From Elmis aenea (Eukaryota; Arthropoda; Insecta; Coleoptera; Elmidae): a DNA stretch of 64,000 nt. The stretch covers positions 5,894,640-5,958,639 of the forward strand of contig OX393581.1 of NCBI GenBank assembly GCA_947652605.1, given 5' to 3'. The position numbers and the translations under genes are program-made. Shown in pieces: positions 1,660 through 48,346 of this stretch (position 1 is its first letter; every line of letters starts with the position of its first letter). The notes below the pieces were generated by a model that was given only the letters and a program-made list of their open reading frames with translations, was not told where the DNA came from and did not search any database.

Positions 1660-1855
1660 AAATGAAGATTGAAGTAAAAATAAGTAGAGAAGAACCAAGA
1701 AAAAACGATCTGAGGCAGAGGCTAGAAGAAAGAGGAGTCAATTAAAGAGAAATTGACAGAATACGTCAGAGAAAGATAATCAAGAAATACGAAATCATAG
1801 ACATAGAAAGTTACAAGAGAACTCTGTTAAGAAGAAGAATATTTGATGCTTTGTA
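1660..1855 (+). mobile_element. 3' end fragment of a non-LTR retrotransposon
   Basis: The plus strand reads like the basic C-terminal tail of LINE reverse transcriptases, with RKNDLRQRLEERGVN, then one stop, then REIDRIRQRKIIKKYE. It ends in a GAAGAAGAAG-rich stretch near 1828-1840. The same layout (RKRLEEKGVSWRDV, then IQK and an AAGAAG-rich 3' end) closes the better copies at 10.4-11.0 kb and 32.5-32.8 kb. It is a short 5'-truncated dead copy. Confidence 0.5.
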
Positions 1856-6950: not shown

Positions 6951-6984
6951 TTGAGACGCTTTTAAGCTTTCCAGATCCTTTATT

Positions 6985-7800
6985 TTGGAAGGATCAGTCC
7001 CAGTCTATTAGCATATACTAGAAACTACAACAACTTTTCTCCATTCTGTCCCATATTTTGCTTAAACTTTCCATTTTCTAACGCCTGTCCTGCTTAGAAC
7101 GTCTATCACTTTCTGCATCGATTTTGACCTCGGTCCTCCGGGATCCCATTTTAAGACTGAATTGATTTGGGTGCCATTAATTGTTTCACGGTGAAGATGT
7201 GGTCGTGTGTACTTCTTTCAGCCTTTTCTAAATCCGCTTTGTGTTTCCGCTAATTGTTTTTCAGTTATTTCCTTCAGTTTCCTCTCTAGCATGAACTCAT
7301 AGGCTTTGGATATAATGCGTGTGATCCCTCTGTAGTTTGTACAGTTTCGGTTGTCTCCTTTCTTAAATATTGGATTGTTATTCCAATTTTCCATTCGTTT
7401 GGTACTTCTCCTTGGGTCCATGCTTTGTTAAATAAGTGTGTAACTATGTCTATTTCTTCATTTCCTAAATTTTTTACCATTTCTGGTGTGAAACAGTAAG
7501 TCCAGCTGATTTCCCTTGCTTTAGGTGTTTTATTGCTTCTACAACTTTGTCTCGGTTTATGTGTTCATCTTCTTTCATATTATCCGGCATATAATCATTC
7601 TCCTCAGTTCTAGTTTTATTTTCTTTTGTAGTTAAAAGTTCTTGAAAGTATTCTTTCCATCTTTCCATAACGTCTGCGTCGTTTGTTAACATTTTGTTAA
7701 TTTTTGATTTCACATGTTTTATTACTTGCCGTTTTCTTTTTTTAAATTTTTTAAGTACTTTGTAAAAAAGTTTTTGATTTATTGTGCAGTTCATTTCCGT
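6985..7800 (-). mobile_element. Non-LTR retrotransposon relic with internal deletion
   Basis: Reading the minus strand from about 7794 down, the frame gives an upstream spacer (INKMLTNDADVMERWKEYF) and the start of reverse transcriptase (VVEAIKHLKQGKSAG). After frame shifts come VPNEWKIG, PIFKKGDNRNCTNYRGI and LAETQSGFRKG, which are typical RT motifs 0 to 2 of RTE/Jockey-type LINEs. The catalytic FADD part is missing. The sequence jumps to a C-terminal tail (WDPGGPRSKSMQKVIDVLSR, RKWKV, EWRKVVV) at about 7140-7010. It is dead: several frame changes, stops and a central deletion. It differs from the LINE family at 10.4 and 32.1 kb in its tail motif. Confidence 0.8.
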
Positions 7801-9400
7801 TCTTCTGCCAATGTAAAATTGCCAAATGTCATCGTGATCTTTTGCTAGTAATACCGATAGAATCTGTCTGCGTTTTTTTTTGTCATTTGCAATTTATCTA
7901 ATGTTTGGAGTAAATTTTTCAAAAATTAACACCGTCGCAAATTTGTCTAAATGGCCAAACGCGACAGTGTTAAATGAAAAAAAAGTTTAAGATAAAATTG
8001 ACACCAAAATTCTTTCCAAGTACACCAAGCTGATCAACATCGGTATATTTTTAACTGTGTTTGATTTAGCATTCATATGTGAGCTTGCCATGTTAGACCC
8101 CAAGTTTTATCACACTGTAAAACTACACAATGTATTTCAAGTTCATTTTCCTACAAAATATTAGAAAACTTTGGTTTCTTTACCGGTAAATGGGCAAGTG
8201 CAAGAAATAATAAGACTTAAACGTTTTGTGTTCTTATTTAAAATGATTTTAACTAGTTCAGCCTATCGTGCTAGTAAAACCTTATAAAACTAGTTTAAGA
8301 CTACACAAATTTGAATCAAAATTCTACTGCTTCTGTTACCAAGTGCCTCAAAACTGTATAAATTAGCATAATACTGTATTCATATGTTGTTGGTTGAATG
8401 TATTTGATACTTGCAAGAATATTCTGCCCCAATAAGAAACTTTAAGAAAATATTTTCAGACAATAACTGCGAAAAGCGAGATTAACAAACGGGTTATAGC
8501 AAAATTAATATTTGGTCGTGCTATTTTCGCGATTAGATCTCGATAAACTTCGTAACGCATACTAGAAAGGTGTTGGTAATATAATTACGAGATATAAAAG
8601 TGCAACGGTCGCCCTTGAGCTAAAGTTTAGATTACCGAGTGCGAAAGTGGTCTACGCAAAAGAGTCTGCAAGGTTCTCAAGAGTTTGCTTTTGGTTATTA
8701 ACGAAATCGGTCGTATTACCGGCGTTATCGAACTACTAACTGTAAAATACATTTCAGCAGGAATTTCATATTGATTAACAGGCGGATGTCCTTTGTAACG
8801 GCAAGAACAGTAGAAGATTGATGTATAAAAAGATGTTTGAGATGTATCGTTTGCTACGGTAGTTCACTAGAACTCGGTTAGAATACGGTATTTGCTGACG
8901 ACGTTTATCGGTTTCAGGAATAATCATTTAGTATTGTCTGGCGCGTACTAGGAAGTTGCTTACCTTGGTGATACTGGAGTAGGGCACTTGCTGTGTATCC
9001 TGGAAGTGTCCGATAAATGTGCACGCATCTGCAACGAAACACATTGATGGTTAATGAGATTTTATCCAATTTTGCCTTTAATTAAAGCCACAGATCTGTG
9101 GTTTTACTATTTTCGATGGTTCATATACTGAATAGTTCGAAAAGTTCCTACGTTTTACTTTCGCCATGCGTAGAATTAAGAGCGTATTGTGTCGCGAAAA
9201 TGTTTGCACAATAAATTGCACTTATGCACCAGTTTTGATCTAACCCGAAATAGCTTGCGCGATTTAGACAAACGACGTTTTAAAGTGTCATATAATTGAG
9301 CAATTAAATTTTTTTTGGAGGTTACATTTCAAAAATTAAATAATAAACAAGATCAAGAACGGGTTGCATTTTGAAAACATAGTTTTACTTTAAAAGGGAT
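7801..9400. other. Intergenic stretch with no supported gene
   Basis: No coding exon could be supported. Base composition is slightly less AT-rich from about 8,500 to 9,060. Two TATA-like words (ATATAAAAG at 8594-8602 and GTATAAAAAG at 8823-8832) lie there, but no open frame with a good start follows either. A 5' exon of the spliced gene starting at 17,641 could lie here, but I could not identify one. Confidence 0.4.
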
Positions 9401-9402
9401 TG

Positions 9403-10008
9403 ATTGCATTCAAAAAATCATTTGTGGTGTTTATGGAGAGGCTGGTGTTGATGTAGGAACGGTTTAAAAGTGGTTATCAAAGTTTCGTTAAGGAGATTTT
9501 TCCTTAGAAGATGCATTAAGGCCAGAAAAACCTTTTGAAGGTGACGATTTTGAAATTGTGGCAATTATCAAAAATTACTCACGCTGTACTATGAAGCATT
9601 TTGTAGAAAGTGTCTTAATATTACAAGAATAAGTTGTTAGACATCTACAGCATTGGAATACGTTTTTTGCAATGATTTTGAGGATGATAACACAGAATAT
9701 CAGATTAATTTAATTGTTTCCATAGCTACTGGTACTTCTGTAACTCTAAACCGATACATCTTGGGTCAATAGGCAAAAAGTTTGACTGGAAAGTTTTGTG
9801 TTACTTTCCGAATCTTGCGCCCTCGAAGTACTGACTACTCCGATCTCCACAGAATACTTTAAACTTTTTTTTTTAATACAGATGCCATTAAAATGCACCT
9901 GAAAAAGTTCCTTCGTAATAAACCGCACGAATTGTTTGAAGATGGTATTGTACAACTAACTGAAATGTAGGCAAAATTCATACAAAATGATGTTACTTAT
10001 ATTGTTTA
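9403..10008 (+). pseudogene. Decayed mariner transposase with a central deletion
   Basis: The 5' part (9403-9661) reads CIQKIICGVYGEAGVDVGTV, a stop, KWLSKFR, a stop, then GDFSLEDALRPEKPFEGDDF and VVRHLQHWNT. This matches the N-terminal helix-turn-helix half of mariner transposases (the usual pattern is VYGE, KWF.RF, GDFSLED..R.GRP, VVRHL). The 3' part (about 9850-10,008) reads AIKMHLKKFLRNKPHELFED, GIVQLTEM, a stop and AKFIQNDVTYIV, the usual C-terminal end of these enzymes. The middle, including the D,D(34)D catalytic core, is missing or unrecognisable. Stops show it is inactive. Terminal repeats were not found. Confidence 0.8.
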
Positions 10009-10414
10009 ATTAAATCGTTTTGATATAAAAGATCCTTGCCTCAATGTTATTAAAAAAAGCGAACAAAGTTTTACACCAACCCAATATCTAATATTAGTTT
10101 ACTAATAGTCTTGTTGTTTTTTTATTCAAAAATTGTTTGACTATTTTCTTACACAATATTACAGTTAAATTTCCTAAGAAGTATTAGCAAAAAAAAACAA
10201 TTAACTATGCGATTTTAAACAAATATAAACAAACACACCAATATTTACACAAAAATTAACTTGTAAAACAAATTTATGCAGCACAGGTGTGTAAATTAAA
10301 TAAAATTATCTATTTTTAGGCATAAAATTATGCACATCGGTATTTGCATAATTTATGATAAAAGCAATTTTTTTTGCTACTTTAAAATTTAATTTTGGTA
10401 ACTGGTTCATGAGG

Positions 10415-11052
10415 TTTCGCTGTAACCATAGCCTTTGTCTTTGTTATAAATATTTAGGAACAATAATTACAGAGAATGGTAAATTGGAGAAAGATCTGAA
10501 TAACAGAATAGCGGCAGCGACGAAATTTTACTGCGACACTAATAAATGTTTGAGTAGTTAGGAGATATCAAAAGAAACGAAGACGCGAGTTTTTAATGCA
10601 GCGTACGTACCCATTCTCACGTAGTTCAGAAACTTGGACACTAACACAAAAACAAAAACGAAGAATACAGGTACAGGAAATGAGATTCCTGAGAAGAATA
10701 GAGGGATGTAGACTGATCCATAAAATCAGTAACGAAAACGTTCGAAAAAACCTAATAGTAACGGATATTAAGAAAATGATGGAGGAAAACGACGGCTTGG
10801 ACATCTACTACGCATGCCAGAAAGAAGATACGCGAAAAAAGGATGGAAATTGAAGATGGAGGGAAAAAGAAATAGAGGAAGACCAAGAATAAAATGGGAA
10901 AAAGAAGTGAGGAAGAGACTAGAAGAAAAAGGAGTCAGCTGGAGAGATGTGCCACAATTAGCTAACGACAGGAAGGAACGGAGAAACTTCATACAGAAAT
11001 AGAAAAGCATACCGTACAAAGTGAAACCGATTAAGAAGAATAAGAAGAAGAA
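10415..11052 (+). mobile_element. 3' end of a non-LTR retrotransposon (RT thumb and tail)
   Basis: The plus strand gives YLGTIITENGKLEKDLNNRI, then SETWTLTQKQKRRIQVQEM, RFLRRIEGCR and, after frame shifts, RNRGRPRIKWEKEVRKRLEE, GVSWRDV and a terminal IQK stop. These are the conserved motifs downstream of the catalytic region in a common arthropod LINE group. The copy ends in an AAGAAG-rich run at about 11,031-11,052, which fits a simple-repeat 3' terminus. It is 5'-truncated and interrupted by stops. The same family supplies the copy at 32,061-32,790, so it is a repeated element and not a host gene. Confidence 0.8.
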
Positions 11053-14000
11053 GAAAATTTATTTGGCCGTAATTATAAATCAAACTTGTTTTTCATTTGT
11101 AAATGCATAACATAATGTCTAACAAAACCAGTCTGCTTTACATTTTGTGAGTGTATGATACGATACATTTTTCCTGCACAACATTAAGTGCATAGGTACA
11201 TGTGTTAAGTGTAATATGACAGCCCTACGAAAAATATTCTAAGGCATTCGTAGATTTTGTAATTGGCAGAAAAACTATCATATTCCATGAACATCTTATT
11301 TCAAGATACTTAAAATAGCTTATATAAAAAAAGACCATTAAAATGTAAATTAGAACTAACCGTCAGCTTAACCTTGACATTGGCTCTTAAATAAAATAGC
11401 CTTCATCGTATCTGTACGAAAAATAAATATTTATATTTTAGTGTAAACAGTATTTAACAGGTTTTGTAGCATTTTTGGTTCCGAAATGTCGTTACCAAAA
11501 CTTGTATTTGATAATCTATAACAACCCTGTCCAGAACAACTCAGAGATCAGTATTCTAGACCTAATCAACCTTCTTTTTGTTATTATGCAAACAGATTTA
11601 TTTGATATAGGCTAACTTCCACAGCCGCTACGATTTACACTGTGGAAAAAGCCTTAATTACTATAAAAGCCATTTGCACTTATGCGTTACGTCAAAGTCC
11701 ACTTGATATTTACATGTGAACTGATTTATTTAGTTTCAATAACTTTTTAAAAGCCGCTCGATGATAATTTTGACTGAAACAAAAAATAAACAAGCGATGG
11801 TTTTATTTGTTATATTTTGTTTGTTGCTATCGACGCGATTGTGTGTTATCAGCTGTTGTTAAACAAATTTATCGAGTGTATGTGAGGGCCGTGAGAATAA
11901 TAATATACAGGGCGTATACTGTTTAGCAGCATGCTGTGATAAATAATTGTTGAAAATGACACCTAAAAGTCCCGACAACTGACAAATGACTGCATATATT
12001 TGCTTATAGCCTTCTGGGTGATTTTATGTTGGGTACCTGAACGCTCAATGCCGCTGTAAATGCTTGATTTGTTATTGATTTGTTATTGAGTTATTATTGA
12101 TTGTGTATTTGTTGTCAATCAAAAAATTGTATTAAATAAAGTGGTAGAATTTAAAATCCCATTTTTGCAAAATTACCTAAAAGGTGATGCTTTAAAGATA
12201 TGTGTTTGATCAATTTTTTTCATTTAAATATTTCTGAATACATGCCAAAAGTTTACTTCTCAAGAAGATTCTTATAAATTAAATATTATTAACAATTGTT
12301 TGCATTTATAAATGAAGTAAACTATTTTCAAAAGCATTCAGTCGACGAGTATTAGCAGCCCTTGATAGATTATGCTCTAAAAGTGGTATTAGAGCATTGC
12401 AGCATCACTACAACTTCTTCATCTTTAAATTTAATTCTTATCAGTAGTGACCACAGTCTGCTTCCTCTGTGGAAGGCAAAACATTGTTCAGGCAACCCCC
12501 GTAGATGGTTCAACCAGAACTGGTTGAGTTCCACAAAATTTTATAAAACTACTTTGTGTTTTGAATGATCATTGCATCACAAAAGCGAACTTCATGTGCG
12601 GAATTATCTATCAAGCAGGTCTTCAAGTGACGTCTGCGTTTGTTTTCTATAAACAACAACCTACTTGTATTATTTGTTATTCGTCGATCAAAAATTGGAC
12701 ATACGCTGTGTTATGTTTATTAACGGATCATCGCTAATTTACATTCGGTTGAACTGAGTTTATCTTATCACACACACTTGTTTGGAGGAGAAAACAAGCG
12801 AACACGCGCAATTTTCAAGGTCGCGTCCAGCGGAATATGCGATGACATTGAAATACAAAGTCCCTATTCCCATACAATATGGATATTGAATTATCATGTT
12901 TGTTTTAATGTGGGCTGGATAAGTCATGAAGATGGAGACTGGTGATGCGTTATATAAAATGTGGAGGCTTGTCATTTTCAGGAAATTACAGACCAGAAAC
13001 AGTGCATAATTTTCCTTTCAATAACGTTAATAACAGTTCTTTTATGATTATTGTCGCCATAAGCAAATTCTTTTATGATTTCATGCATTCTAACTACGTC
13101 AGAATAAGTATGAAGTATTATTACTAAAAAAAATAATTTTTCAGTGGTATTTTTGTGTCTGATAATCCAAGAGTTGGCATATGGAATGAAAACAATCTAC
13201 CAAAAATCTTTGTGAATAAGGTTTTCTAAACCTCTGAAAATTTTAAGTGATAAATTAAATTTTTACAATGGTGCAAACCTTTGAAACAGTAATTTCTTCA
13301 AAAAAAGTTTAAGACAATTTTTTGCGAAAATTAAAAACCAACCAATCAATCAACAACACATTAAAATATTCGCGATAAGACACATTCAAAACTGTTAAAA
13401 CAAATATTTTATGTGAGTATGTGTTTTATTTATTATTTTATTTACAATCCTTGGTGACACATAAATATTCCATAAGCAATTTAAGTCTAAATCTAATAAT
13501 TTAGATCACTTGCCATAAATAACTTACTCTGACTTCGTTCTTTTATCATTAAAATCCATCTCCATAAAAAAAAACTTTTTGACGCTCGTTTTATTTATTC
13601 GCGTTAGGGAATTTCAGGAAACACCTGCCACACGGAAACAAAAACGCATTGGATATTATTTTGTTATTTTTATCCCACGACATTTCACCACAATAACGCT
13701 TTGCATATCCTTTTCGATATGGATATTTGACGTGAAAAACGAAAATTTGATGTATGGGAACTCTTGCGGGCACTAGTAAAATCCATCATAATATCAGTTT
13801 GATTAAATGCGATACGAAGTTAAAATATTAGACTACCTCCCTGAATATTTTAGTCATTCAGCAAAACAGATAAATTGAAATTTAGGGACAAAAATAAAAT
13901 ATTAATCAAAAATTACTTTTATGCAAATCTTACTACTGTTTAAAGAAAATTTCTCGACATTTGACCTTCCAAAAAGCGTTAGACATAACTAAATTCTCAC

Positions 14001-14597
14001 GCACAAGTAAAACACCCCAAAAACTTGTAACAAAAAAGCTGTTCTACACGGAATACAAATATTTATTGCTAAAGTAAAGGCGAATATTTATTTTGCAAAA
14101 CAAATATACCGCGACAAATACACACAGACGTAATCTGTCTTGTGATATGGTTTGAAATATTTGGTTTTGTTTGTTTTTCTTGTCTAATCTTCACACGCAA
14201 TAATGTAGTTACATTCTTCTTCCTATTTTTTTTTGCTATCTATCAAGGCCATATTTCAAATCATAAATATTGCTTTTACCTTAAGCAAATATTGATCGAG
14301 AATTTTGTATTGAAAGTGAAAAAAATTACAGCATTCTCATGTACTACCAACATATTTGTTTAAATTAGACTAATTAAAAAGTATTTGGGTCTTTTTTATA
14401 AACCAATGCTAGATTAGTCTTAAAATTCACGTATCCTTCTGCACTTCTACAAGAGATGCTTAATGAAAAAAAAAACAAGTAATTTTTAATTAAACCTATT
14501 ATATTTAAATTAAATATCTCAAATAATTCAAGCATTAAACGACAGATTGAAAATTGCACATTAATTATTTAAAATAATAAACGCAACTATTTTTTAT
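11053..14597. other. AT-rich stretch without a supported gene
   Basis: No coding exon is supported. An ACAGGG word near 11,908 may mark a foldback-element end. At 12,069-12,118 there is a short direct-repeat run (GATTTGTTATT and variants). The frame at 12,362-12,568 faintly resembles the C-terminal part of mariner-like transposases (SSDHSLLPLWKAK, then WLSSTKFYKTTL), but this is too weak to call. Confidence 0.45.
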
Positions 14598-14727
14598 TTC
14601 CGCGGAGGGGGGCCCCTTTCGGTTTGCTGTACAGACTCCTATTGGTCTATGGCAGTGCTTCCCAAACTGTGGTCCGCGGACCCCCAGGGGTCCTCGGACT
14701 GTTCCCTGGGGGTCCGCAGGCAAAGTC

Positions 14728-15091
14728 TTGAATCACATGTTTGAACTGCGGGTTGAAGTGCGACTATTTCTAATGGATAAAGATTTTTATTTGAAAGACC
14801 GTTTTATTAGTTACGTCAGGTTAATTAAAATATTCTCCCATTTAAGTGACTTAAACTTAAGTTTGCAGGAGAGTGCAATAAATATTTTCAAGTTGGAGGA
14901 GAAAATATAAGCGATGGTCAAAAAGTTACATTTATTGGCGATTAATCTACAAAATAATAATTTTGATTTGTTTCCTACCTTACACTAGTTCATCGAAAAC
15001 TCGGAAAAAATCGTACCCAACGAATGTGTTGCAAATATGCTGCACTTACAAACATTGAAAATAACTTTCAGAGATTATTTTCCTGAAATGT
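14728..15091 (+). pseudogene. hAT transposase relic (SCAND3/ZBED5-type)
   Basis: Translation gives YLKDRFISYVRLIKIFSHLS, directly followed by DLNLSLQESAINIFKLEEKI. Past a stop come MVKKLHLLAINLQNNNFDLF, PTLH, a stop, FIENSEK and finally LQTLKITFRDYFPEM. The IFSHL-LNLSLQ pattern followed by NFD-FP.L and F..YFPE is characteristic of the transposase family domesticated in vertebrate SCAND3/ZBED5 genes. Only a central piece survives, with stops. The DDE residues and the C-terminal dimerisation domain are not visible. Confidence 0.75.
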
Positions 15092-15251
15092 AATAAAATA
15101 TCTCGTGAATCAGCGATCAATTTCACTGTAAAATCAGTGAAATTACAAACATAACCGCTATTAAACAAGCCAAACTTGTTAAGGTATCGTGTAATAATGA
15201 TTTAAAAACTTAGTTTTAAGAAACTAGTCCCAGTGACTTTTGGATCTCAAT

Positions 15252-16050
15252 TAGGGATTGCAATCCCGATCAAATTTTACGATCCCGGGATTTCGGGATT
15301 GAAGATGTTTTAATCCCGGGATCCCGGGATTATATATAATGTGAAGTATTTGCTTAAAAACAGAAGTTAATGCTGTGTATATATATTTTTTGATTACAAA
15401 TGATTTACATAATTATTGAATAATTTAGTAATTACCAATTATTTTTATTAACTTTTTATTTAATTTGTTTTCTCTATAATTTCTGTTAATTTGTTTTAAT
15501 TATATCATAGGTGCAAAGATGTTAATAATAATTGAAAAATATATATATAGCTACCGTACCTATTATGTTTTATTAATACAGAAATAATTGAATTATTAGA
15601 TATAACATTTAAATAAATGACATTAAACTTATTATACATTAGAATACTTAATTACATAAACATAAATTTGCTGAAACTGTTAAAAACACAAACAAAGCAC
15701 AACTTTAATTCACTAAAAATTTAAAAAATAGACTGTTTTATAAGTAACAATAATAAAAGAAATTAGGATGATTATTATCTTAGTACAAGAATTTTTTTAA
15801 ATTTTGTTATCATACATAAGACGGTGAGCGGCGACGTAAACAAGCTTAAACTTGCAAAATTGCATCGTTCAACTTATTCACGTTGAGTAGATACCAACTA
15901 TGAGCAATTTTTTTTTACAAAATAATGTACTTATAGTTAAATTTTTTAAATCCCGAAAATCCCGGGATTCTATATTTAAAATCCCGGGATTTTCGAGACC
16001 AAAAAGCGACCGGGATCCCGGGATCCCGAATCCCGTGATTGCAATCCCTA
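15252..16050. mobile_element. Nested 799-bp hAT-type MITE with perfect 8-bp duplication
   Basis: The termini are inverted repeats beginning TAGGGATTGCAATCCCG on the left and TAGGGATTGCAATCACG on the opposite strand at the right end. ATCTCAAT is duplicated exactly on both sides (15,244-15,251 and 16,051-16,058). Subterminal arms are packed with CCCGGGAT palindromes (15,280-15,335 and 15,950-16,035), which could bind transposase as repeated sites. The interior is AT-rich and non-coding. It sits inside the older hAT element 14,653-16,463. Related TAGGGATTG-ended sequences occur at 42,289-43,222 and, degraded, near 28,145-28,205. Confidence 0.93.
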
Positions 16051-17640
16051 ATCTCAATACAAAAATGTTACATTTACTAGCTTAAAATGCGTTAAAACAT
16101 TTACTTTCATTCTACTCAACTTATTTGTGCAACCTGACGTTTTCTCCGTTAGTTTATATTAAAAATAAGCAAGTATTGAATGTGAAATATTATTTAAGAA
16201 TTAATTTATCCAGAATTAAACCCGAGATCGATAAGACCGTAGGCACAAAGCAACACAATTTTTTACTTAATTCATCAAAATACAATTCTATTAAAGGTGT
16301 AAAGTTTAATTATTATAATCGAAATCTCTGCTGCGTGTCACGAAAAAAGCAGCAGCGTGTCACTATTAACACGCGTGTCATAGGTTTGCCATCACAAGAG
16401 GGGTCCGCCGTAAAATCTGTGGAAAAAAGGGGTCCGCAGACCAACAAAGTTTGGGAAACACTGGTCTATGGTACCCTCTGGTGATAGTCCCTTTAAGAAG
16501 TTCTGTGTTTTTGAAAAACTCCAGGATTTTCTTTAAGGGTGATTTTCTTGGTTGGCTTTTTCCATCCCTAGAAGTCTACGCCGATAGTGAGTGAATCCTT
16601 CATACTGGTATATTACGTGAAGAGAAGTTTCTTCTCCTTCACCACATCTTCTGCATATATTGGTTCCTGAGAGCCCTAATATGTTGAAGTGTTTGTTTAG
16701 CCCACAGTGTCTTGTGGCTGCTCTGATTTCTACTCTGATCATCCTGTGCATTTCTTTTATCTTTTCTTTGGGGACCATTAATAGGATCGCCTTAGAATGG
16801 GCTTGTCCTGCAACTTTTTTCCAATGAGCATTATATCCTTGTATTAATATGTCATTAAGACACCGCTTGGCTGTTTCATAGGATGTACCAACTGCGGGTT
16901 CTGGTCCGAAGAAAGGTGCCCCGCTGCCAATTTAGCTAGGCCTTGTCGTTCCCTGGTATATTAGTGTGCCCTGGACTGGACACCATACCAGTGATAACAT
17001 TATTCCTGCTTCCTAGCACGATAAGTGCCCGGATGCAGTTCAGAACAAGTCCTGAGTTTACTTCCGACGAGCCAGAGCTTTTAACGCTGCTTGGCTGTCG
17101 AACACCATGAAGATTCTGTTATTATTATAATCTTTTTCTAATAGTGTATTTGCACATGTGCATAGCGTACAACTCGGCTTAAAATATGGTTTCACACTGT
17201 CCAAGGCTTACAGATATGCCTTGTCTCAGTTGCGCTGCCCCCATATTCCGCAGCTGTGCCATTTTGCGTTTTCGACCTGTCTGTATACCAGACCAGGACA
17301 TTTAGCTCTATTTTTTAAGGCTCCCATTGGTCCCGTGTTGGAATTATGATGGTTTGCTTTAGGGCTAGCGTCCTGTTTATTCTATCCACGATCACCCTTA
17401 GTGTCGGATGCGTGTCTCGTTGAGAATAGCTAAGTGCCCTTTTCTACGTCTCCCCTCTTTGGAGGCGATTTTCAGTCGAAACTCAAGTATTTAGTTTCAA
17501 ATAGAATTTTTTTCTGTTGTATGGTGTTTGTTTTGGCCTACATAATATTATATGAAATCGTGGCAATAAATTTTATGATTCTTTAAGGCTGTATTTTATG
17601 TGTTTAAGCTAATAAACTTATTGACTTTTTTTTATTGCAG

Positions 17641-20600
17641 TTGTATTCTGTGATTATGCTGCATCTGGAAGGTCCTTGCAGTTTATTGAAGAGTACATGG
17701 TGCGAGAGGTGCTTCCATGTTTTGGGAGTACGCATACTACCACCAACATCACTTCATTGCAAACTACTCTATTTAGGTGAGTGTGGTTATTTGTAAAAAA
17801 AACTTTGTTTTATTTCGTCCCAGTGGAGAATTTACTCATAATTTTTATTAATTTTTTTTTGGATTAATATTAAAATAAAATTGATTCATTTGAAGGTTTT
17901 TGCTACCCAAGTATAACAATACATTTATTTGGTTGCTATGTTTATCTCAATTTTAGTAAATTTTATTTGTAACTGCTTATTTAAAAAAAAGAAACGTTTT
18001 TTGCCTGTTTTGAACCATTCAATGCCACCCACAAATCTGTCGCCGAAGTTTCGCAACATCTGTAATGAATGATCGATTATTAATTGCATTGAATTTCAGC
18101 ACGAGCGATTGTTGTTGATCTGGAGATTACACAGCCTTTACAATTGTTGTGTCTTCGAACAAAATTACTGCTTTAAAATACTTTTTACGATTTTTCTAAT
18201 CGTGTTTACGAGTGTTGAGCATGTTGTTGATATGTTGCCCTCTAAAATATAGGTCTAGGGCGAGTTTTATACCTAACAGCGATTATATCCAATATAAATG
18301 TTTTTAGATTCGTGCTGTGAAGTGGGAAAACAGCAAATGCCATATAGTAATTAAAGATCAGTACCGATAAAGAACGAATATAATTGTTTATAAAGCAAAC
18401 TATTAACCCAGCAATTAGGGCAATTTGAAAACGTTTCTTAATTAATTATTGTAATGTTAAATAATTGGAATACTGGTTGAATTTTTTTAAATTTTCTAAA
18501 GCTGCAAAATATTTTTAATCGCTTTTTGAACAAATTTTTAGTCGTCATGTATTGCCTTAATGTTGTTTAACATCTTTAGGAACAATAAAGCCAATTTTCT
18601 TTTAAATCTTAAATTTAAAAAAAAATACGTTGCAAGGGTATGCGCTTGGCAAATTACTAAAATCTTAGACAAGCTGTAATATTTTTAATCGTTTTATAAA
18701 CAACATAGTGATAGTTTTAATTTAATTCGGTTTTGTTCAACATACATTACAAACAATAAAGCCAATAATAAATTTTTTGATTTTTTTACCAAATAAGTTC
18801 CAAGAGCATACATAAAAAAAGTTCAAAAGTTGTAACAGCTGTGAAACAAATTTTTCTGCTTTTTTTTGAAAAAACTGAAGGCACATAATTTCTCCTTTTA
18901 TCGTTTTAAAAACTTTCTAGCTAATTGCAAAACTTTTTTTTTTTTGAAAAAAAAAGTGTTAATAGTATACACTTTGATTTTTTTTTAAAACGTGTAAAAA
19001 ATATTTTTAATCGGTTTCTAAACGATATGGCATGCATTAGATACTAAATAGTTGTTTAACACTTTAAAAAACAATACAGTCAAGTGCAAACAGTTTGAAT
19101 TTTTGACAAAATAAAGTTCCAAAACTTACAACGTATCCAAAAACTTTAAAGACTTTTAAAACATAATTTGAATCGGATTTTGAACGAGTGGTTAGTCGTT
19201 AATCTTTGCTTTAATGTTGAATAACATTTGGACAAAATGCCAACTGCAAAATGTTTGAAAATTTGACAAAAAACCAAGGTTGTACAGGGTGGCCTATTTT
19301 CGATGCCCATACAGGGTATCTCGGTTATTATCAGAGATTAAAAAAAACTAAGTACGTAGTCTCGATTTCTTTTTTCAAGAGGAGTTCATTGCCGTAAACA
19401 GATTTTTGATATCTCGTTTAAATTTCGAAATATAGCCAAAACCCGATTTTTGGCAATTTTCAAAACTTTTAAATATCTCGCTTAAACGAAAAGATAGGGA
19501 AAAACTTTAAAGACATCTTTGGAATGGTTTTTTGTCCTTAATAAGACAGCGATATTCAATTTTTTTACTCATATAAATATCGAACTTTCTTATTTTAAAT
19601 AGTATTTCTAAAATTAAAAAGATATCCAAAATCTGTTTACGGCAATGAACTTCTCTCGAAAAAAGAAATAGAGACTACGTACTTAGTTTTTTTCTATCTC
19701 TGATAATAACCGAGATACCCTGTATGGGCATCGGACATAAACCACCCTGAACCCAAAAAAGTTTTTAGAAACTAAAAAAAAACTGTTTTATCGGTTTCTG
19801 AACAAATTGGTAGTCGTTGATCATATCCTTATTGTTGTGAAACAATTTGATTAATGACAGAGCCAATTAATATTTGATCAAACAATTTCAAGTGTATTTA
19901 CTTGAACAAGTTTCATAAACTTTGAAGAAAAATATAGTGGTTTTTAACAAACTGGAGGTAGATAATCATTGCTAAGAGAGTTTAATAGTTTTTAAAATTT
20001 CGAGCTAATTGCAATCGATTCCCGAAGTCCCCATCTTCATAATGGAGCCACTATGCATACTATTATTACCCAACTATCATGTTAATTTTATTAATGCACA
20101 TTTATTGGTAATTTAATCAGGACATCCTTCCTTTAATAAATTAAGTGCAAGTGCTATTGGAATGTGGAACAGTTCACAACACACTCTATCACTTATTTAA
20201 TTATAAAATTATGCAGTCGGAGCTCCTCATGTGGTAGTGGTATTTATTGTTTGATGCAACACTCAAAATAAGTAAATAACCTGGATAATTTTAAATAAAT
20301 GCTCATACAAACTAGAAAAATAAACAATTTTATTTTGGCTAAAAGTGAAATTAATTTCCTTGAAAGGTAGAAAAGAATTATAGTGAAATGGGATTTTAAA
20401 AACTTTTTTACTATTTGTAAACAGAATCTACGCAAAATTGTGCTTCAATGTCGAAAAATATTTTGAGTGATTTCAAATAAGCAAGTTGTAAGCAAAAATT
20501 AAAAGCCTGATGTGTTTTGTTTTTTTATCAATAGCGTAAAATTTTTTCACTTATTTTAATATTTTTTTATAGAGCTCTTGAATCATTTTGACTCATTGAA

Positions 20601-23600
20601 CCAACTCTGTATCTCTGACCGTTTGCGAAATCCCTATGCTGAACACGATAACTGAGACACCCAGTATATGAGGGGACCTAATTTTTTTTTGCAAATTTTT
20701 TTTAATGTAGGTCCTAAGGATTCGATTGATGCAAAAATTAGCGAAGGCATACTTTGCGGGACACCTTGTAAGAGTGACTTATGTCACTATTCTCAAAAAA
20801 TTAATTTGTTTTATAGATTCACAAACATTTTAATTTACAAAAATGTGATCAAACTTAGTAGACTTTATCAATATTTTTAAATCGACTTAATTACAACCCT
20901 TTACATATCTCGAAACAAAAGAACAATTCATAAAAATGGTTCAGGTATTGAGACGAAAAGAATCAAGCATTTGCCAAAATTTTTGTTTTACTGACATACA
21001 AAATTATAAAGTTGGTCGTTAAGTATCAAAAATGATGTTGAATTTTGTTCTTCTGAAGTTAGAACCATGTTTTATTTGTGTTTACAACTACTGACTTTTA
21101 ATTGTATTGCGTTCTACCCAATTTCTTGCATTCCCCAGTATGCCATATCCCTAACAATGTATTACTCCTACATGTTACTTCTATTACAGGCACGAGGCAC
21201 GTGAAATAATAAAAAATGCAGTGAACGCTACAGACGAAGATGCCATAATTTTTACCAGTCAAGGGTTCGTAGGGGCCATTAGGAAACTGACCGAAGTTTT
21301 AGATCTCCGAGAACCGCCGGTAGTTTTTACAAGTCCTAGCGAAGACCATGACAACTTAAAACTATGGCAACAAACAGGAGCCAAGGTAAAAGACCTTAAT
21401 TTGCTTGGGTGGCCAAATTGCTTTTTGCTGCATGATGGAGCACCTATATGACGTCAATAAAACTTGTTTAGCTAACGATTAAGTTCTACGCGAAGCGGAC
21501 GGCTAGAAATTTTGGAAACCTGTTTGGACTACTTGCATTTTGTTATTTATGTGCGGTTTGGCAAATTAAAATACGTTCGAATGTTGATAAATATCTTTAT
21601 TGTTATGTAATTGGTTTCTTGTGTGCTTTCTTTTGAGTTGTAAGAATGTCAACTACGTGTTTCAAGCACTTATTTTTTATTGTTAACCATTACAGCAAAG
21701 ATCGTGCCACAAGATAAGAGATTCGCATTTGGTTAATTGGAACATTGTATGTTAATTCAACACATTAATCTACTTAAATATAAATTAGCTCGTATTAGAA
21801 CGCCTTATTGTGGATTTGATACGTCCTAACTCTGTAATTAATTGCGAAAAATTCGGAAAGTCGTAGTGAAATATATTGGGTGGACTAAATTTGAATGTTT
21901 TACGGGGTATCTCGGTTACCATAACAGTTAGGGAATATCTGATATCGGTCTCTTGGGTTATTTTTTTGAGGTAAACACGCCGGTGCTATAAGATTTTTTA
22001 TATCACCTTTCATTTTGGCACCACAGACAAAAGATAAAATTTCATCGTTTTTAAAAATTTACTATTCTTTATTTACAAAAATAGAACTAAATGTTACATA
22101 CGTTTTTTATTAAAAAAAAGTATGCTCAATTTAAGAAACATTTTAATTTTTTAACGACCTTCATATTTGTGATTTGAAAAATGTACAGTGTAAGCTTCCA
22201 ACATATTAAAGTTTTCAAGGTATTTTAATTTAGCGATGTTCACAATACTATAATATTCAGTAATAACACATATTTAAAAAATACATGTTTTATAATTTAC
22301 TTGGATGTGACGTTTAGTTACTTTTTAATTGCAAATAAAACTAGTTTGCGCAATCGTGGCAAAATTTTATAATACAATTTTTACGAAATCAGTCATAGTA
22401 TCGGTTATTTTCGGAAGTAAATATACTGGATGTTTCTTAAGTATTGCAAAAAAAACCGGAAGGTGATTCCCTATCAAAAATTAAAGGGGGTTTTTCATAT
22501 AAATTTCCTCCCACCTTCATAGGGGGCTGAAAAGTGTGACCCCTGTTGGTTTTTTTATCAGAACTTTTTGGTGGATTATAATTTTGCAATTTAAAATTTT
22601 ATTTCTTGAAAGCTTGATTTGTTTAGAAACTTTTTTTATTCATTAGTTTTTCCCGTAAAACCTACAGTTTTTGAGTAAAAAATAAAATAAGTAAACATGA
22701 ACCATCAAATTAATATTCCAATACAAAACTATTCATTTTGGTGGTTACAATGGTGTGTTTATGTTCATATTGGGTAGAATGGACGGGCGTTCTAGCGTTG
22801 TCACCGCGTAAACGTCGAAATGAATTACACCCGTCAATTATACCCAATTTTTTTAATGGAATAATTTTAAGCCACCAAAAAGTTCTGATAAAAAACCAAC
22901 AGGGGTCGCATTTTTCAGCCCCCTGTGGAGGTGGGAGATGATTGAAAATATTACTATGAAAAACCTTTTAACAAGAATAAGACATCTACTAAATTAATAT
23001 CATTCTCCTACATTTATCCAAATTTGAGAAATAAAATAAAAACCTAATTTTACCGCTCCCCTTAAGGGGGGTGTAACTTCGAAAGAAGACGTCTAAGGAA
23101 TTTGTTTTTAATGAAAGACTCCCCTTAATTTTCGATAAGGAATCACCTCCTGAATTTTTTTGCAATATTTAAGAAATACCCTGTATAAACTATATGTTTT
23201 TATATCTATTGTCATAGCCTTGGGTATTTTCTGTGGTCATGCCCCTACTAGGGTTTCCAAAAAATTGGTTTACTTAATATCTCAAAAATCAATTTCGTTA
23301 AAAAAAAAAATTTGTTTTAAAATTAAACATAAAAATTTTTAAAAACCTATATAACATTAAATTTTACATTATTTATAATTCACTTATAGAAAATTTTCAA
23401 AAACGATGAAATCTCAAAAAAATAACCCGAAACCGATATCAGATTTTCGCTATCATGATAACAGAGATACCTTCTAAAATATTCGAATTTGATCCACCCT
23501 GTTGTGGGTGTTCTGTAAATTAAGGGAGAAAAAAAAGAAAATGTTACTCATCTTTGTGAAAAAATGTCGAAATTCACAAGTTTATAAGCCTTTTCTGTAT

Positions 23601-26600
23601 ATATTAATTTCTTAATTTGTACCTTAATCTACGAAACATCTTTACCAACCTTTTTATAGCTATTAATTTCGTGTATTAATTTGAATAAGACTATTAATAA
23701 CCTATAAATATAATTATAAATTGGTAACATGTTGGCTAAACAAACTTTCTAAATTAAAATGACTTAAAATACGTCCAAAATGTTAATAATAAAAATAATA
23801 TTAACCTAGGAACTTTGGTATTTTGCCCAACTTCTAAAATGGTGGCATTAAATGAAATTCCACCTTTTTGTTATTGAACATTGAAGAATTGGAAAAGTTT
23901 TCCTTGCTTTATTAAAATAATCTTAAGCCTAACTCGATTTTTATCCTTAGATTGTACGAATAACAGAAACAAAGGAAGGATTCCTTGACCTAAACGACTT
24001 AGAGGAACAGTTAAGGATGTACCAAAACTCTGGAAGGCAATTAATAGGTTCTTTTTCCGCCGCCTCTAACGTTACCGGGATCATAGTCGATGAAATTGCT
24101 TCGACATTATTGTTGCACCAATATGGTGCTCTGGCTTTTTGGGACTATAACATCGCGGCCCCTTACGTGTCAATAGACATGAACCCCGTCGTACCTGGCG
24201 TGGAGGAAAACACAGTCTATAAGGACGCTGTTTATTTCTCTGGACACAAGTTCGTGGGTGGAGTACAGACGCCAGGTAATTTTTGCGTGAGATAAAAGAG
24301 AAACTCGTTACAAGTAAAGTATTTCAGGAGTTCTAATAGCCAAAAAGTCGCTGTTCAGAAACGTAACCTTGCACGAGTCTGAGGGTTTTCTGGAAGCGCA
24401 CGAACAAAATAAGGTAATTTTGTTTTATGGTCAAATATTTTGCATGCTGATACCGTTTTTGTTCAGAGTTTTGAACTACAAGAGGAGGGCCACGCGGCTG
24501 CCGTTGTGGAATCCATACGAGCTGGACTCGTCATGCAACTCAAGGAAACTGTAACGGTTGCCAATATTATGCAGAGACAAGAAAAAATTACCAAGTGAGT
24601 ACTTTTTAAACGTTGTCACTTTTGTGTTATCTAAATTAATCGCAAATTGTTGAATTATTTAAGTGATTCACTTCATGTACACAGTAAAAATCGATCTGGG
24701 TTAATCAGGCTGTGCAATTTGCGGCCCGAGGGTCGCATGCGGCTCCTCTGACGTTTTTATGCGAACTTATCGATTACTTTTGTACCTACTCGATGCAGAA
24801 AAAAAACATTTTTTCATACATAGGTATACCGTATTTAGTTGGGTTTAGGTTACAGCGCAGTTCCTATGTTTTAGGCTCATCAATCTTGTCAAATAATTAA
24901 TGTCAATGTTAGCTCCTAGGGTCATAGTGAGATGCACTTATTTCAGTACCAAAAAAAAAATTTGCATGCTTCATATTCATGTCAAGGTCGTGCAGTTTAC
25001 AATAGAGCATTGTTCACACCTTGCTTCTCGCCATGTGCCAAAAATTACTTACGGATTATTTGTTTTAGACAAATGCTACAACACATACGCACCATCCCTG
25101 AAATAATTTTATTGGGTAACGGATCTAGTACGCTTAAACGCTTGCCAGTTTTATCATTCATGGTGAAGCACCCCCGAGGAACATTCTTGCACCATAATTT
25201 TGTATGCGCTGTTCTGAACGACGTATTTGGTATACAAGCCCGTGGAGGTTGCCCATGTTCAGGAATATACGCGCAAGATCTTCTGGGCATAGACCAAAAT
25301 CTAGCAGACCAGTACGAAAGCATCATTTTAGAAGAAAGGTAAGAATGTAAACGCTTATAAAACTTCCACAACTAATTTTTGGTACATTTCAGGAGATTGA
25401 GTAGCTTAAGTCTTTCCATGGATAGCTCAACTTTAGAACTGTTAAGGCCTGGCTTCACCAGAATCAGTCTTCCATACTTTATCAACGATTCTGAGCTTGC
25501 GTTTGTCATGGAAGCGGTCAAAATGGTCGCCACTGAAGGCTGGAAGCTCCTACCACAATACATAGTTGATCTCGAAACCGGGGAATGGCGCCATCACTCA
25601 AACTCCATTTCAAAAGATCGAAAATGGTTAGGTTCTATAAGATACATTGACGGTAAAATGACCATGAACGAGAGGCGGATATCAGGCCCTGGATTGTTTC
25701 CACAGAACTATTCCGAGTGTCTCCAAACTGCTAGGAATTTGTTTAACCGCGCGAGAAAGACAGCTATTAGAAACCCATTTCCCGACCAAGGAATTCATTT
25801 TAACACCCGTGGTGAAAAATTACGGTGGTTTATGCTTCCTTTCGAAGCCCAAGAACTCTTAACGAGTAATTCGCAGAACGTGAAACATAGTGTTCCTTTC
25901 AATCCTGTTGGATATGCAGGCTCAAAACGTGTTGATACTCCGGTAGAAGCAGCCAGTTTGCCGTTTCAAACCGCATATTCACATATGTGTACAAGACACT
26001 TTAGCTTGCCATGTATAGACGACCCCAGACTGATAGGATCTCCTTCTCCTGTGCCATACTATCTACAAGAAGTTGTGCCAACTACTATATATCATCCTCC
26101 AAATACTGCAATTTCCTTCGTACAAGCTCCTCCTCATTTTGCTGTCGGTGAATGTGTCAACTCGGCAATTTTTAGTCCAGTTCCTCAACCCACTTCATTC
26201 CAAAGAGAACGTTGCTTCAGTTTAGGAGCTCCTAACGTGTCTCCACCTCCACCACCACCGATGTTAAGCCCTCAAACTAGAGCAAGCTTGGGAATCAGTC
26301 CAAACCTACGTCGACGAAACTGCAGCTTTAACAGCCAGAACGATTCACACTCTTTAGACTCGGAAGTAAATACGTCGCCAACGCAAAGTTTAAATTTACT
26401 GTACGTCGGCGGAAACGATACTGCTCAATTAGGAAGGGCATCTCCCTCACCACCCAATGCGGAATTACAAGCATACGTGAACGAAATTTCAAAAGAATTA
26501 GCAACTAGCATCAAATCAGAAATCAGAGAAGTCATTAATAAAGTGGAAGATGTTCTTGAGAGTACCGACAGCATAGATGTTAGCACATTTTCATGTAATG

Positions 26601-28706
26601 ATCGACACGGCAGTGGAAGCGAAGACGGGAGAAGCGATTCCATTTCAGCAAACGATGTTGCAGAATATTTGGAAAAAGTGTCCATAGAGATGGCCAATGA
26701 AGTGAAATCCGAAATACGTGACGTCGTTAGTGCTGTTGATGTTTTTATAACACCAGAAAACCAAGACAGACATTCCTACTCAAGAGCGTCGAGTTCCGGT
26801 GATAGTGAGAAATTTTTGTTTACTTTTCCCAAGTTTGACAGAAGCGATAGACAACACACACCAGGTTCAAGCAGTGAGACTGTCATCCAATTGATCAACA
26901 CGTCACACAACCCTAATCGTTTTAGTGATGAAGAAGCATCACAACCTGACAAACCCTCAAAAAATAAGTTGTTAACGTCTACTGTTACTAGTGTTAGTTC
27001 ACAAGATAGTGGTATCAATTTATCATTCCATGAACAAGAATATTTATCAAGTGAATTCGCTAAATGTCGTAGCAGTTCCGAATCATCAGCAAGTAGAACC
27101 GTTAAGCAGGAGAATGAAAAGTTAAAATACTCAACCTTACAACGACAAAAACGCGAGTTAAGTGAAAGAGAAACCAGCGAAGAAAAAGAACAGACGTATT
27201 CAAAATGGATTTGCCCTCCAAAACATATCTGGAAACCCACAATTGAAGCAATACAGGAGTATGAAATGATTAAAGATGGAGATAAAGTGATGGTTGGGTT
27301 GTCTGGAGGAAAAGATTCTTTGAGTTTGTTGCATACATTGCTGCAGTATCAAAGTTATGTACAGAGTAAAGGGATTTTGTTTAGTTTGGGTGCTGCCACA
27401 GTGGACCCAGAGATAACCGGTTGTGATCTTTGTGTATTAGTACCTCATTTAAAAAGTTTGGGTGTCCAGTACATCGTTGAAGAACAAGCTGGAGTTAAAT
27501 CAGATGCTGGTAAGAATTTCTTTTAACTCAGTTAAAATGTTTTTGTAGTGTAGCCCAGATTTTCTTAAAAAACTAAAACTTTGATTGTATTACCTTCACT
27601 TGATATACCTAATTCTTTGCTAATTTGTTTTTTTTACCTAGAAAACATCAAACATAAAAGGGAAAATGTGTGGAGCTTCTGCACTGCAGAGAAGAGAAGA
27701 AAATTATATTCCGCCGTTAAAAATAGTGGTTATAACGTTTTAGCAGTTGGTCAGCATTTGGACGACTTGTCAGAGAGTTTTCTTTTATCTATTTTTCACA
27801 CTGGGAAATTACGAACAATGAGAGCACATTATTTAATAAGGTAAACAGTTGAAATACTAAAAAATACATTGGCAAAAAAACTCCACTAGGCAAATTTTAA
27901 AAAAACTTTGAAGAGCTAGCAAAAATATTAACTCAATTAAAAATTATGGTATTGTGTTTTTTAAAATAAAATTGTAATAGAAAGGTAATATTTCTTAAAT
28001 GTATATTTTTCTAACCAATATTATTTTATTATTTATAATAATGACGGAGTAAAATGCATTACATATATGACTTGGAAGTTGGAAGTAATAATCCGCTCCC
28101 TTCCTTTTTCGGGTTATTTATTTCAAAATATTGACATTCATTATATCCCGAGATCCCGGGAAATCCCAGGAAGAAGTCGAATTTCTTCCCGCATTCCCGG
28201 GATTAGCAAAAATGTCAAATATGAGAAATCGTAGTAGTCAGTATATAGGCAAAGTGAGAAAAGAACATTTTAATAATTAATTGGCGAAAGAGCCGAAATG
28301 GCGTATAGTCGATTAGCCGGTACAATGTTAAAAAATCTAATTTAATATTGTTTTAAACTGTGATGTATTTGATTTCAGAGAACACAATCTACGAGTAATC
28401 AGGCCATTTGTTTACGTACGTGAAAAATCTATTCGGCAATTTGTGGTAACGCAAGATGTACCAGCATTCATGGACACCAATTGTTTAGAATCAACAAAAG
28501 AAAGACAAAGGGCAAAACAACTTTTAACGCAACAAGAGATATTATTTCCAAAACTATTCGCAAGTCTGCGTTCCGCGATCCACCCGCTCCTTGGCTTCCA
28601 ACCGAACGAAGACCAAATGAAACTAAAGCGAAGAATAAAACCAAAGGAAAGCGGAGAGGATTCCGAAGTCGAGACTGACGAAGAACCCATACTAAAAACT
28701 GACTGA
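17641..28706 (+). CDS. Cysteine desulfurase-like / TtcA-like PP-loop ATPase fusion protein (5' incomplete)
   Basis: Nine exons: 17641-17776, 21190-21385, 23951-24275, 24328-24413, 24467-24594, 25069-25338, 25393-27509, 27642-27840, 28379-28706. All introns are GT-AG and the phases agree, leaving 1,260 codons plus a TGA stop after a two-base partial codon. Residues 1 to about 530 (counting from the first full codon) are a class V PLP-dependent aminotransferase fold of the NifS/IscS/CsdA type. Residues about 540-980 are a polar, Ser-rich linker. Residues about 985-1240 are a PP-loop ATPase most like bacterial TtcA. Known biology: in bacteria IscS supplies sulfur for TtcA-dependent 2-thiocytidine formation in tRNA. 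Inference: this protein combines sulfur mobilisation and nucleotide activation, perhaps for RNA thiolation. The upstream exon(s) with the start codon were not found. I see no clear mitochondrial targeting sequence because the N-terminus is missing. Confidence 0.9.
18460..19985. repeat. Decayed tandem repeat (about 165-bp period) in intron 1 of the fusion gene
   Basis: A unit built around (A/T)TTTTAATCG-(G)TTT-T-AAC, followed by TAGTCGT-A, TTAATGTTG-TTAACA and ACAATAAAGCCAA, recurs with divergence. Anchors lie near 18,511, 18,681, 18,892, 19,003, 19,167 and 19,785. When the 466-bp foldback insertion at 19,284-19,749 is removed, the last spacing also falls near 150-170 bp. This is an old satellite-like tract that has decayed in the intron. 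It is not coding. Confidence 0.65.
19284..19749. mobile_element. Foldback element with about 130-bp inverted arms
   Basis: The left end ACAGGGTGG...CGATGCCCATACAGGGTATC is mirrored by the right end, whose complement reads CAGGGTGGTTTATGTCCGATGC and continues through TATCTCGGTTATTATCAGAG. The arms (about 19,284-19,415 and 19,620-19,749) also share TTCATTGCCGTAAACAG. A second, truncated copy is at 40,568-40,885. It has no coding capacity and lies inside the decayed tandem repeat of intron 1. Confidence 0.85.
20555..20671. mobile_element. Single end of an ACAGGGTG-type foldback repeat
   Basis: The segment ACCAACTCTGTATCTC...CCGTTTGCG...ATGCTGA-CACGATAACTG(A)GACACCC(A)GTATA closely matches 43,420-43,495. 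Both end in a GACACCCTGTATA-type terminus. Only one arm is visible here. Lies in intron 1 of the fusion gene. Confidence 0.6.
21876..23501. mobile_element. Long inverted-repeat element in intron 2, carrying a second nested one
   Basis: The left arm starts GGGTGGACTAAATTTGAATG and runs through GGTATCTCGGTTACCATAAC and CTGATATCGGTCTCTTGGGT to TTATTTTTTTGAG. The right arm is its diverged reverse complement, ending GAATTTGATCCACCCTG at 23,501. Arms are roughly 100-160 bp. The interior (22,432-23,187) is itself another inverted-repeat element. No coding frame is supported. Confidence 0.82.
22432..23187. mobile_element. Nested foldback element with an internal long hairpin
   Basis: The ends read TATACTGGATGTTTCTTAAG on the left and, on the complementary strand at the right, TATACAGGGTATTTCTTAAA. 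Both continue with ATTGCAAAAAAA and an AGGTGATTCC block. Inside, 22,505-22,575 (CCACCTTCATAGGGGGCTGA, CCCCTGTTGG, CAGAACTTTTTGGTGG) pairs with 22,871-22,937, so a large hairpin can form within the outer one. The short GC-richer centre (22,760-22,850) is unexplained. Confidence 0.8.
24707..24765 (+). mobile_element. Terminus of a hAT-like element in intron 5
   Basis: CAGGCTGTGCAATTTGCGGC followed by CCGAGGGTCGCATGCGGC is a GC-rich island typical of hAT non-autonomous ends (CAG start and CGGCC palindromes). A diverged partner may lie around 24,985-25,020. No clear target duplication was found, so the extent is uncertain. Confidence 0.4.
25831..27170 (+). other. Disordered linker between the two enzyme domains, with a duplicated helical motif
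   Basis: This part of exon 7 stays open for over 1.3 kb without a stop, so the fusion of the flanking domains is read directly from one exon. It is rich in Ser, Pro, Asn and Glu, with a PPPPPP run and many Ser-Asp-Ser stretches, suggesting disorder and phosphorylation. Two similar helical segments occur, EISKELATSIKSEIREVINK (in 26,471-26,560) and EKVSIEMANEVKSEIRDVVS (in 26,656-26,742). They share K-SEIR-V, look like an internal duplication and may be docking helices. Bacterial IscS and TtcA have no counterpart known to me. Confidence 0.75.
27171..28706 (+). other. TtcA-like PP-loop ATPase domain of the fusion
   Basis: The domain opens with YEMIKDGDKVMVGLSGGKDS; the PP-loop SGGKDS is at about residues 1017-1022. 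Then come LSLLHTLLQYQ, ATVDPEITGCDLCVLVPHLK, SLGVQYIVEEQ, VWSFCTAEKRRKLYSAVKNS, VLAVGQHLDDLSESFLLSIF and GKLRTMRAHY. This order matches TtcA (a D-type strand, C-x-x-C-S-R-x-R-R, GHHxDD, GGKMxxMPP). Oddities: the first Cys of the usual CxxC before the RR pair is Trp here (WSFC), and the later CxxCGSQ is replaced by a segment with one Cys (MDTNCLES). An extra CDLC lies upstream. The Fe-S ligands may therefore be rearranged or lost. The C-terminus ends in an acidic tail. Confidence 0.82.
28140..28206. mobile_element. Degraded CCCGGGAT-rich hAT MITE fragment in intron 8
   Basis: ATCCCGAGATCCCGGGAAAT, CCCAGGAAG and TTCCCGGGATTAG repeat the palindromic motif that fills the arms of the intact element at 15,252-16,050. 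Termini and target duplication are not recognisable. Confidence 0.55.
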
Positions 28707-47828: not shown

Positions 47829-48346
47829 TCAACATTCGCACACACATTTGCACTGATATTTTGTTTGTCCATCTTCAGTTTCTATTTTAGTGGCAGTTTG
47901 AGGGTTGCAGTCGCATTTGCAGTTACAGGAACCGCAGTCGTCTTTGGAACATTTGCAAGTGCACAGACATTCGCAAGGGAAATCTCCTTCAGGAGTGTTG
48001 AAGACGCACATGTGCGTGAAAGTGTAGGTACCATCTTCATTTTTTTCGCATGCTGGCTGGGGTGGTCTAACGCAAGGTTTTGTACAGCACTGGGCTATAG
48101 GAATTGAAAAAACTTTCAAAAATGGAAAATAAAGCAGCTACATTAGTATTACAAAAAAGTTAGGAGTTTGAATAATTTTTTTTTGAAACTAAAACTGTTT
48201 GGAAATATTTTATGTGTTTATATTCTTTGCAGTTTTTATTGAACTTTGTTTGCAAACGACAACTCATATATTATTAAAAAAAAAAAACTACCAAATTTAA
48301 AGTCGAACTAAAAACTACAAAACTTACCACTTTCTTCGTTAGACAT
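47829..48346 (-). CDS. Cysteine-rich metallothionein-like protein, 94 aa, two exons
   Basis: Minus-strand exons 48346-48328 and 48094-47829, joined by a GT-AG intron (donor GTG|GTAAG, acceptor CTATAG) in phase 1. The start gives MSNEESAQCCTKPCVRPPQP. A middle part with unusual aromatic residues (GTYTFTHMCVFNTPEGDFPC) is followed by CECLCTCKCSKDDCGSCNCK and CDCNP, and the end is QCKCVCEC. There are 19 Cys in 94 residues, almost all C-x-C in the second half. Two Cys-rich lobes are separated by a linker of about 15 residues (NPQTATKIETEDGQTKY). Inference: a metal-binding protein related to the two flanking metallothionein-like genes, with which it shares the tiny first exon. It is longer than usual insect metallothioneins (40-70 aa). 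The aromatic residues make alternative roles possible. Confidence 0.82.

Follow-up and report, generated by a model that had tools for sequence, protein, structure and literature searches.

The DNA analyzed here is a 64,000-nucleotide window of the beetle Elmis aenea genome (GenBank assembly GCA_947652605.1, contig OX393581.1, positions 5,894,640 to 5,958,639, forward strand). A gene model on the forward strand at window positions 17641 to 28706 is predicted to encode a single long polypeptide in which a SufS-type pyridoxal phosphate (PLP) enzyme is joined to a TtcA-type PP-loop ATPase. The conclusion that this predicted gene is a real fusion is well supported because the uninterrupted exon 7 joins both domains. 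The reading that we favor, with confidence that is about even, is that this real, conserved-looking fusion has lost or rebuilt its original chemistry and is now a repurposed protein rather than a 2-thiocytidine (s2C) synthase. A first-pass annotation of the same DNA interpreted the gene as a self-contained sulfur-transfer and RNA-thiolation machine in an animal or, alternatively, as a repurposed relative. The protein families and the fusion in that interpretation were borne out. The working machine was not, with D97, V72, A257, W1096, and Q1123 replacing key residues. Given changed residues in both halves, a repurposed relative fits better than a working thiolation machine.

Gene model and joint between the domains

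All nine in-phase exons that the first-pass annotation had proposed were recovered in place. They are separated by eight GT-AG introns and are read in one frame through 1260 residues, with a stop codon only at the end. The exons are as follows.

17641..17776, +, first exon found (exon 1): opening part of the PLP domain (VFCDYAASGRS...), from the gene model and alignment with bacterial relatives
21190..21385, +, exon 2: PLP domain; D97 codon at 21344-21346 (SufS H123), and V72 (SufS T95)
23951..24275, +, exon 3: PLP domain; D175, S207, H209, and Schiff-base K210 (codon 24248-24250) kept
24328..24413, +, exon 4: PLP domain; lacks the GGGTV loop seen in bacterial relatives
24467..24594, +, exon 5: PLP domain; EEGHAA in place of the bacterial EEGGTP (A257 = SufS T278)
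25069..25338, +, exon 6: PLP domain; RGGCPC at 25241-25258 (R348, C351, C353)
25393..27509, +, exon 7: PLP C-terminal subdomain, Ser/Pro-rich linker of ~445 residues, and first part of the PP-loop domain, with SGGKDS (27302-27319)
27642..27840, +, exon 8: PP-loop domain; CxxC changed to WSFC (27671-27682) and the GHxxDD histidine to Q1123 (27752-27754), with DD retained
28379..28706, +, exon 9: PP-loop C terminus; likely third cluster cysteine C1187 (28482-28484), and stop codon

Exon 7 carries the C terminus of the PLP enzyme, the linker, and then SGGKDS, all in phase. As originally described, it runs without a stop from the aminotransferase C-terminal subdomain into SGGKDS, and it lies within a stop-free stretch of 716 codons (25376-27526) that has a chance of ~1e-20 at its own base composition. 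The joined protein matched the Pfam families Aminotran_5 (E 3.4e-23, residues 1-358) and ATP_bind_3, a PP-loop family (E 5.5e-14), whereas exons taken singly gave weak matches. It is conceivable that two transcripts or genes only appear to be fused, for example through a second promoter or polyadenylation site inside exon 7, as the long linker might suggest. However, the 716 open codons extend across the joint, and exon 7 already contains the beginning of the PP-loop domain, in the same phase as the PLP part. We therefore consider separate products to be very improbable.

An acceptor site at 17640 precedes exon 1, which opens within the PLP domain; bacterial relatives have ~40 extra residues N-terminal to the point at which the exon starts. 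No upstream start exon was found within window positions 1-17700 or the 10 kb further upstream with a scan for the PFG motif and a profile of the bacterial N terminus, which was run against three forward frames (best E 0.18, nothing convincing).

Two further features of the gene were observed. Within the linker, at 26461-26760 (+), are two similar helix-like segments of ~29 residues, ELQAYVNEISKELATSIKSEIREVINKVE and DVAEYLEKVSIEMANEVKSEIRDVVSAVD, with an alignment score of 66 versus 56 or less in 2000 shuffles. The pair may have arisen by duplication of a docking or dimer helix. An AKAP-type helix was considered for the linker and rejected; its pattern had no match. The first intron contains inverted-repeat arms (ggtatctcggttattatcagag...) at ~19310-19400 and 19640-19720 that have, by eye, the look of a small mobile element.

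Active sites of the two halves

Domain searches upheld the proposed family assignments, with Aminotran_5 and ATP_bind_3 recovered and TtcA the best PP-loop family. The PLP half is a SufS-type PLP enzyme of a widespread bacterial family, referred to here as the RGGC family, for which the modelled fold is SufS. It scored 69.9 bits with the sufS family model, below the cut-off of 475.1. Its active site was compared over the twelve SufS active-site positions that all 87 bacterial relatives also share (T94, Q203, and G253 were excluded). Nine of the twelve are unchanged: H31, N150, D175, S207, H209, K210, R348, C353, and R403, which correspond, in order, to H55, N175, D200, S223, H225, K226, R359, C364, and R379 of E. 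coli SufS. Thus, the Schiff-base lysine (K210) and pyridine aspartate (D175) are present, as are the persulfide cysteine (C353) and the substrate arginines (R348 and R403). The PLP lysine and RGGC-type cysteine that the first-pass annotation recognized are K210 and C351, respectively, and it is C353 that aligns with the catalytic C364 of SufS.

Other positions are changed. The acid-base histidine on the PLP ring (SufS H123) is replaced by D97, and SufS T95 and T278 are replaced by V72 and A257; the histidine and both threonines are found in all 87 bacterial relatives. The GGGTV loop is lost, and the bacterial EEGGTP reads EEGHAA. None of 13 in-frame options for alternative splicing near intron 4 brought back GGG or GTP. 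In the covered part of the domain, 44 of the 60 columns that are fully invariant in the bacterial family are kept and 16 are changed, and 49 of the 158 columns conserved at the level of at least 93% are changed. In these alignments, the PLP active site is altered rather than swept away.

The 49 changed columns, together with the long branch of the window protein (3.04) in a tree with its relatives, could also reflect a relaxed or decaying gene, in which an ancestral active fusion is losing function in one lineage. However, most of the catalytic core is untouched by the changes, the 1260 codons contain no stop or frameshift, and the eight introns are intact. Decay is thus an unlikely explanation.

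The other half of the protein is a TtcA-type PP-loop. TtcA was its best NCBIfam match (152.5 bits, E 1.4e-44, below the cut-off of 272), with lower scores for TilS (61.5 bits, cut-off of 93.6 not reached), TtuA (40.3), and NcsA (19.8), and it is ~30% identical to E. coli TtcA. The SGGKDS motif is shared with 17 of 17 TtcA relatives, a nonredundant set obtained from 44 loci that gave 40 sequences and then 17 after the removal of near copies. The DD pair is also kept. The first cysteine of CXXC, at the position of TtcA C122, is W1096 (WSFC), and the histidine of GHxxDD is Q1123 (GQHLDD); all 17 relatives have the cysteine and the histidine. A second alignment, which partly overlaps the first and has four new TtcA sequences and a CTU1-like gene of the same genome among its rows, agrees, with the cysteine and histidine at the W1096 and Q1123 sites in 10 of 10 other rows. 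C1099 is kept and C1187 aligns near the third cluster cysteine, so that two of the three cluster cysteines remain. According to two papers, these enzymes require a cluster that is held by three cysteines (PMC5372739; PMC10067955).

Bacterial relatives and genomic context

Bacterial relatives are 33 to 48% identical to the PLP half across alignments: 33 to 42% in an eight-row alignment (A1) and 39 to 45%, for the best segment, against 80 GTDB loci that were retained from at least 584 matches to an alignment query. A scan of GTDB with a single protein as the query found no relative. A tblastn search with a 467-residue query covered 100% of the query at 39% identity (E 2e-91), and the homology extends through the C-terminal subdomain. 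The bacterial family has hundreds of members, and the records examined give it no function.

No PP-loop relative was found in the available flanks of the 87 bacterial PLP loci, which are partial (15 hold less than 8 kb and 30 hold 8 to 15 kb), and no locus had a C-terminal extension of more than 200 residues. Among 16 host genomes searched for TtcA, 4 gave some match at E 0.001, and 2 gave one over the cut-off. The gene contexts that were read, in Rhodococcus, Sagittula, Deinococcus, Pontibacillus, Paracoccus, and Sinorhizobium, were without TtcA, and Pfam searches with ten neighbor genes from five loci revealed no shared theme. Searches of viral contigs found 42 TtcA relatives but no PLP relative. 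It looks as if the fusion event arose outside the examined bacteria because there was neither fusion nor adjacency in the 87 loci and TtcA is scarce in the hosts. No bacterial donor clade is claimed for the PLP half because the long branch of the window protein falls outside the well-supported groups of the tree.

On a plasmid of Sagittula sp. P11 (4917-8406), the PLP relative is beside genes for an FAD oxidoreductase and a 2-aminothiazoline-4-carboxylate hydrolase, a gene run that hints at cysteine-related metabolism.

The beetle genome itself (516 Mb, 302 contigs) was searched for both families. PF00266 yielded 5 matches among 12 scored candidates, and PF01171 yielded 1 among 4; the window gene itself was matched in neither search, and split paralogues can escape. 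Besides the fusion gene, a single PP-loop place exceeded the cut-off. It has intact CTFC and GHNADD motifs, and its pieces score best with the NcsA or TtuA models; from its sequence it appears to be CTU1-like. Another place, matching PF00266, is IscS/NFS1-like. Therefore, the standard enzymes for sulfur supply and U34 thiolation are probably present, and the fusion gene is an addition to them.

Elsewhere in the window, an open frame of 343 residues with Cys-rich repeats (CSCKCSDGKKCDENCKC...) at 50066-51097 (-) is metallothionein-like by eye and unusually long; a Pfam search with an E cut-off of 0.01 gave no match. About 2 kb away, at 47829-48137 (-), lies another Cys-rich open frame (ECLCTCKCSKDDCGSCNCKCDC...). 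A reverse transcriptase fragment is present at 62864-63343 (+) (RVT_1, E 3.6e-16).

Possible functions and comparison with known systems

In the reading that we favor, a linker that looks disordered connects the SufS-fold PLP half to the TtcA-type PP-loop ATPase. What the sequence shows directly is the two domains, the stop-free exon across them, and the changed residues. The PLP half would still fold as the SufS dimer, perhaps with PLP still bound to K210. As a cysteine desulfurase it would be poor or inactive because it has lost the acid-base histidine, the two putative PLP-phosphate threonines, and the GGGTV loop. The PP-loop half could still bind ATP via SGGKDS and the DD pair but would be unable to hold the three-cysteine [4Fe-4S] cluster used by TtcA, TtuA, and NcsA. 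Loss of both the desulfurase chemistry and the cluster would thus leave a repurposed protein that is dimeric, ATP-binding, and perhaps RNA-binding, with the PLP half serving mainly as a scaffold or ligand sensor.

Several points weigh against this interpretation. Nine of the twelve PLP active-site columns are intact, and a plain scaffold would not need those residues. The PP-loop half has an intact SGGKDS ATP loop, the DD pair, and two of the three cluster cysteines. These kept residues would leave room for activity of some kind, and the 1260-residue open frame indicates selection on the protein. The changes were read from the sequence of one species and may be private to it, the N terminus is absent from the gene model, and the roles of SufS T95 and T278 in binding the PLP phosphate are putative.

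The same residues could serve an active relay in cis, in which a persulfide formed by the PLP half on C353/C351 is passed to the PP-loop half and RNA is thiolated via C1099/C1187 without a cluster, a two-cysteine route likened to that proposed for some MnmA/ThiI enzymes. The presence of both halves on one polypeptide would suit such a relay, as would the retention of K210, D175, both arginines, and RGGCxC in the PLP half and of SGGKDS, the DD pair, and two of the three cluster cysteines in the PP-loop half. However, the replacement of H123 with D, T95 with V, and T278 with A, the loss of GGGTV, and the changes of CXXC to WxxC and GHxxDD to GQHLDD make it doubtful, and the bacterial PLP family does not need TtcA, given the 2 of 16 host genomes with TtcA over the cut-off. 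It is even less probable that one animal chain combines its own sulfur donor with an RNA-thiolating ATPase in which a two-cysteine persulfide route replaces the TtcA cluster to make a thionucleoside new to animals.

For the repurposed fusion that we favor, the residue changes imply either that the chemistry was rebuilt or that an old bacterial sulfur-RNA pair was turned into a pseudoenzyme. A search for s2C or a similar thionucleoside in animals, of which we know of no report, would naturally start from a fusion of a sulfur donor with a TtcA-type thiolase, and the bacterial PLP family itself becomes worth study. None of the papers listed in literature searches described a PLP-TtcA fusion in its title or abstract. 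PANTHER PTHR43686 is a possible name for the family; no paper was found under that number.

Among known proteins, the closest comparison for the PLP half is the bacterial RGGCxC family, annotated as "aminotransferase class V-fold PLP-dependent enzyme" (~480 to 600 amino acids; for example, WP_157180114.1 of Rhodococcus plasmid pDK1). Across the 87 loci, its members are encoded by stand-alone genes with the histidine, phosphate threonines, and GGGTV intact, whereas the window protein is fused and has these changed. It differs from the SufS/CsdA cysteine desulfurases in its low score and in the replacement of H123, T95, and T278. TtcA, the tRNA 2-thiocytidine(32) synthetase, is by far the best PP-loop family, but the window protein has tryptophan for the CXXC cysteine, glutamine for the GHxxDD histidine, and a fused PLP domain. 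With the cytosolic tRNA U34 thiolase CTU1/Ncs6/NcsA it has in common the PP-loop ATPase superfamily; unlike that thiolase, for which the genome has a separate candidate gene with intact motifs elsewhere, it scores low with NcsA.
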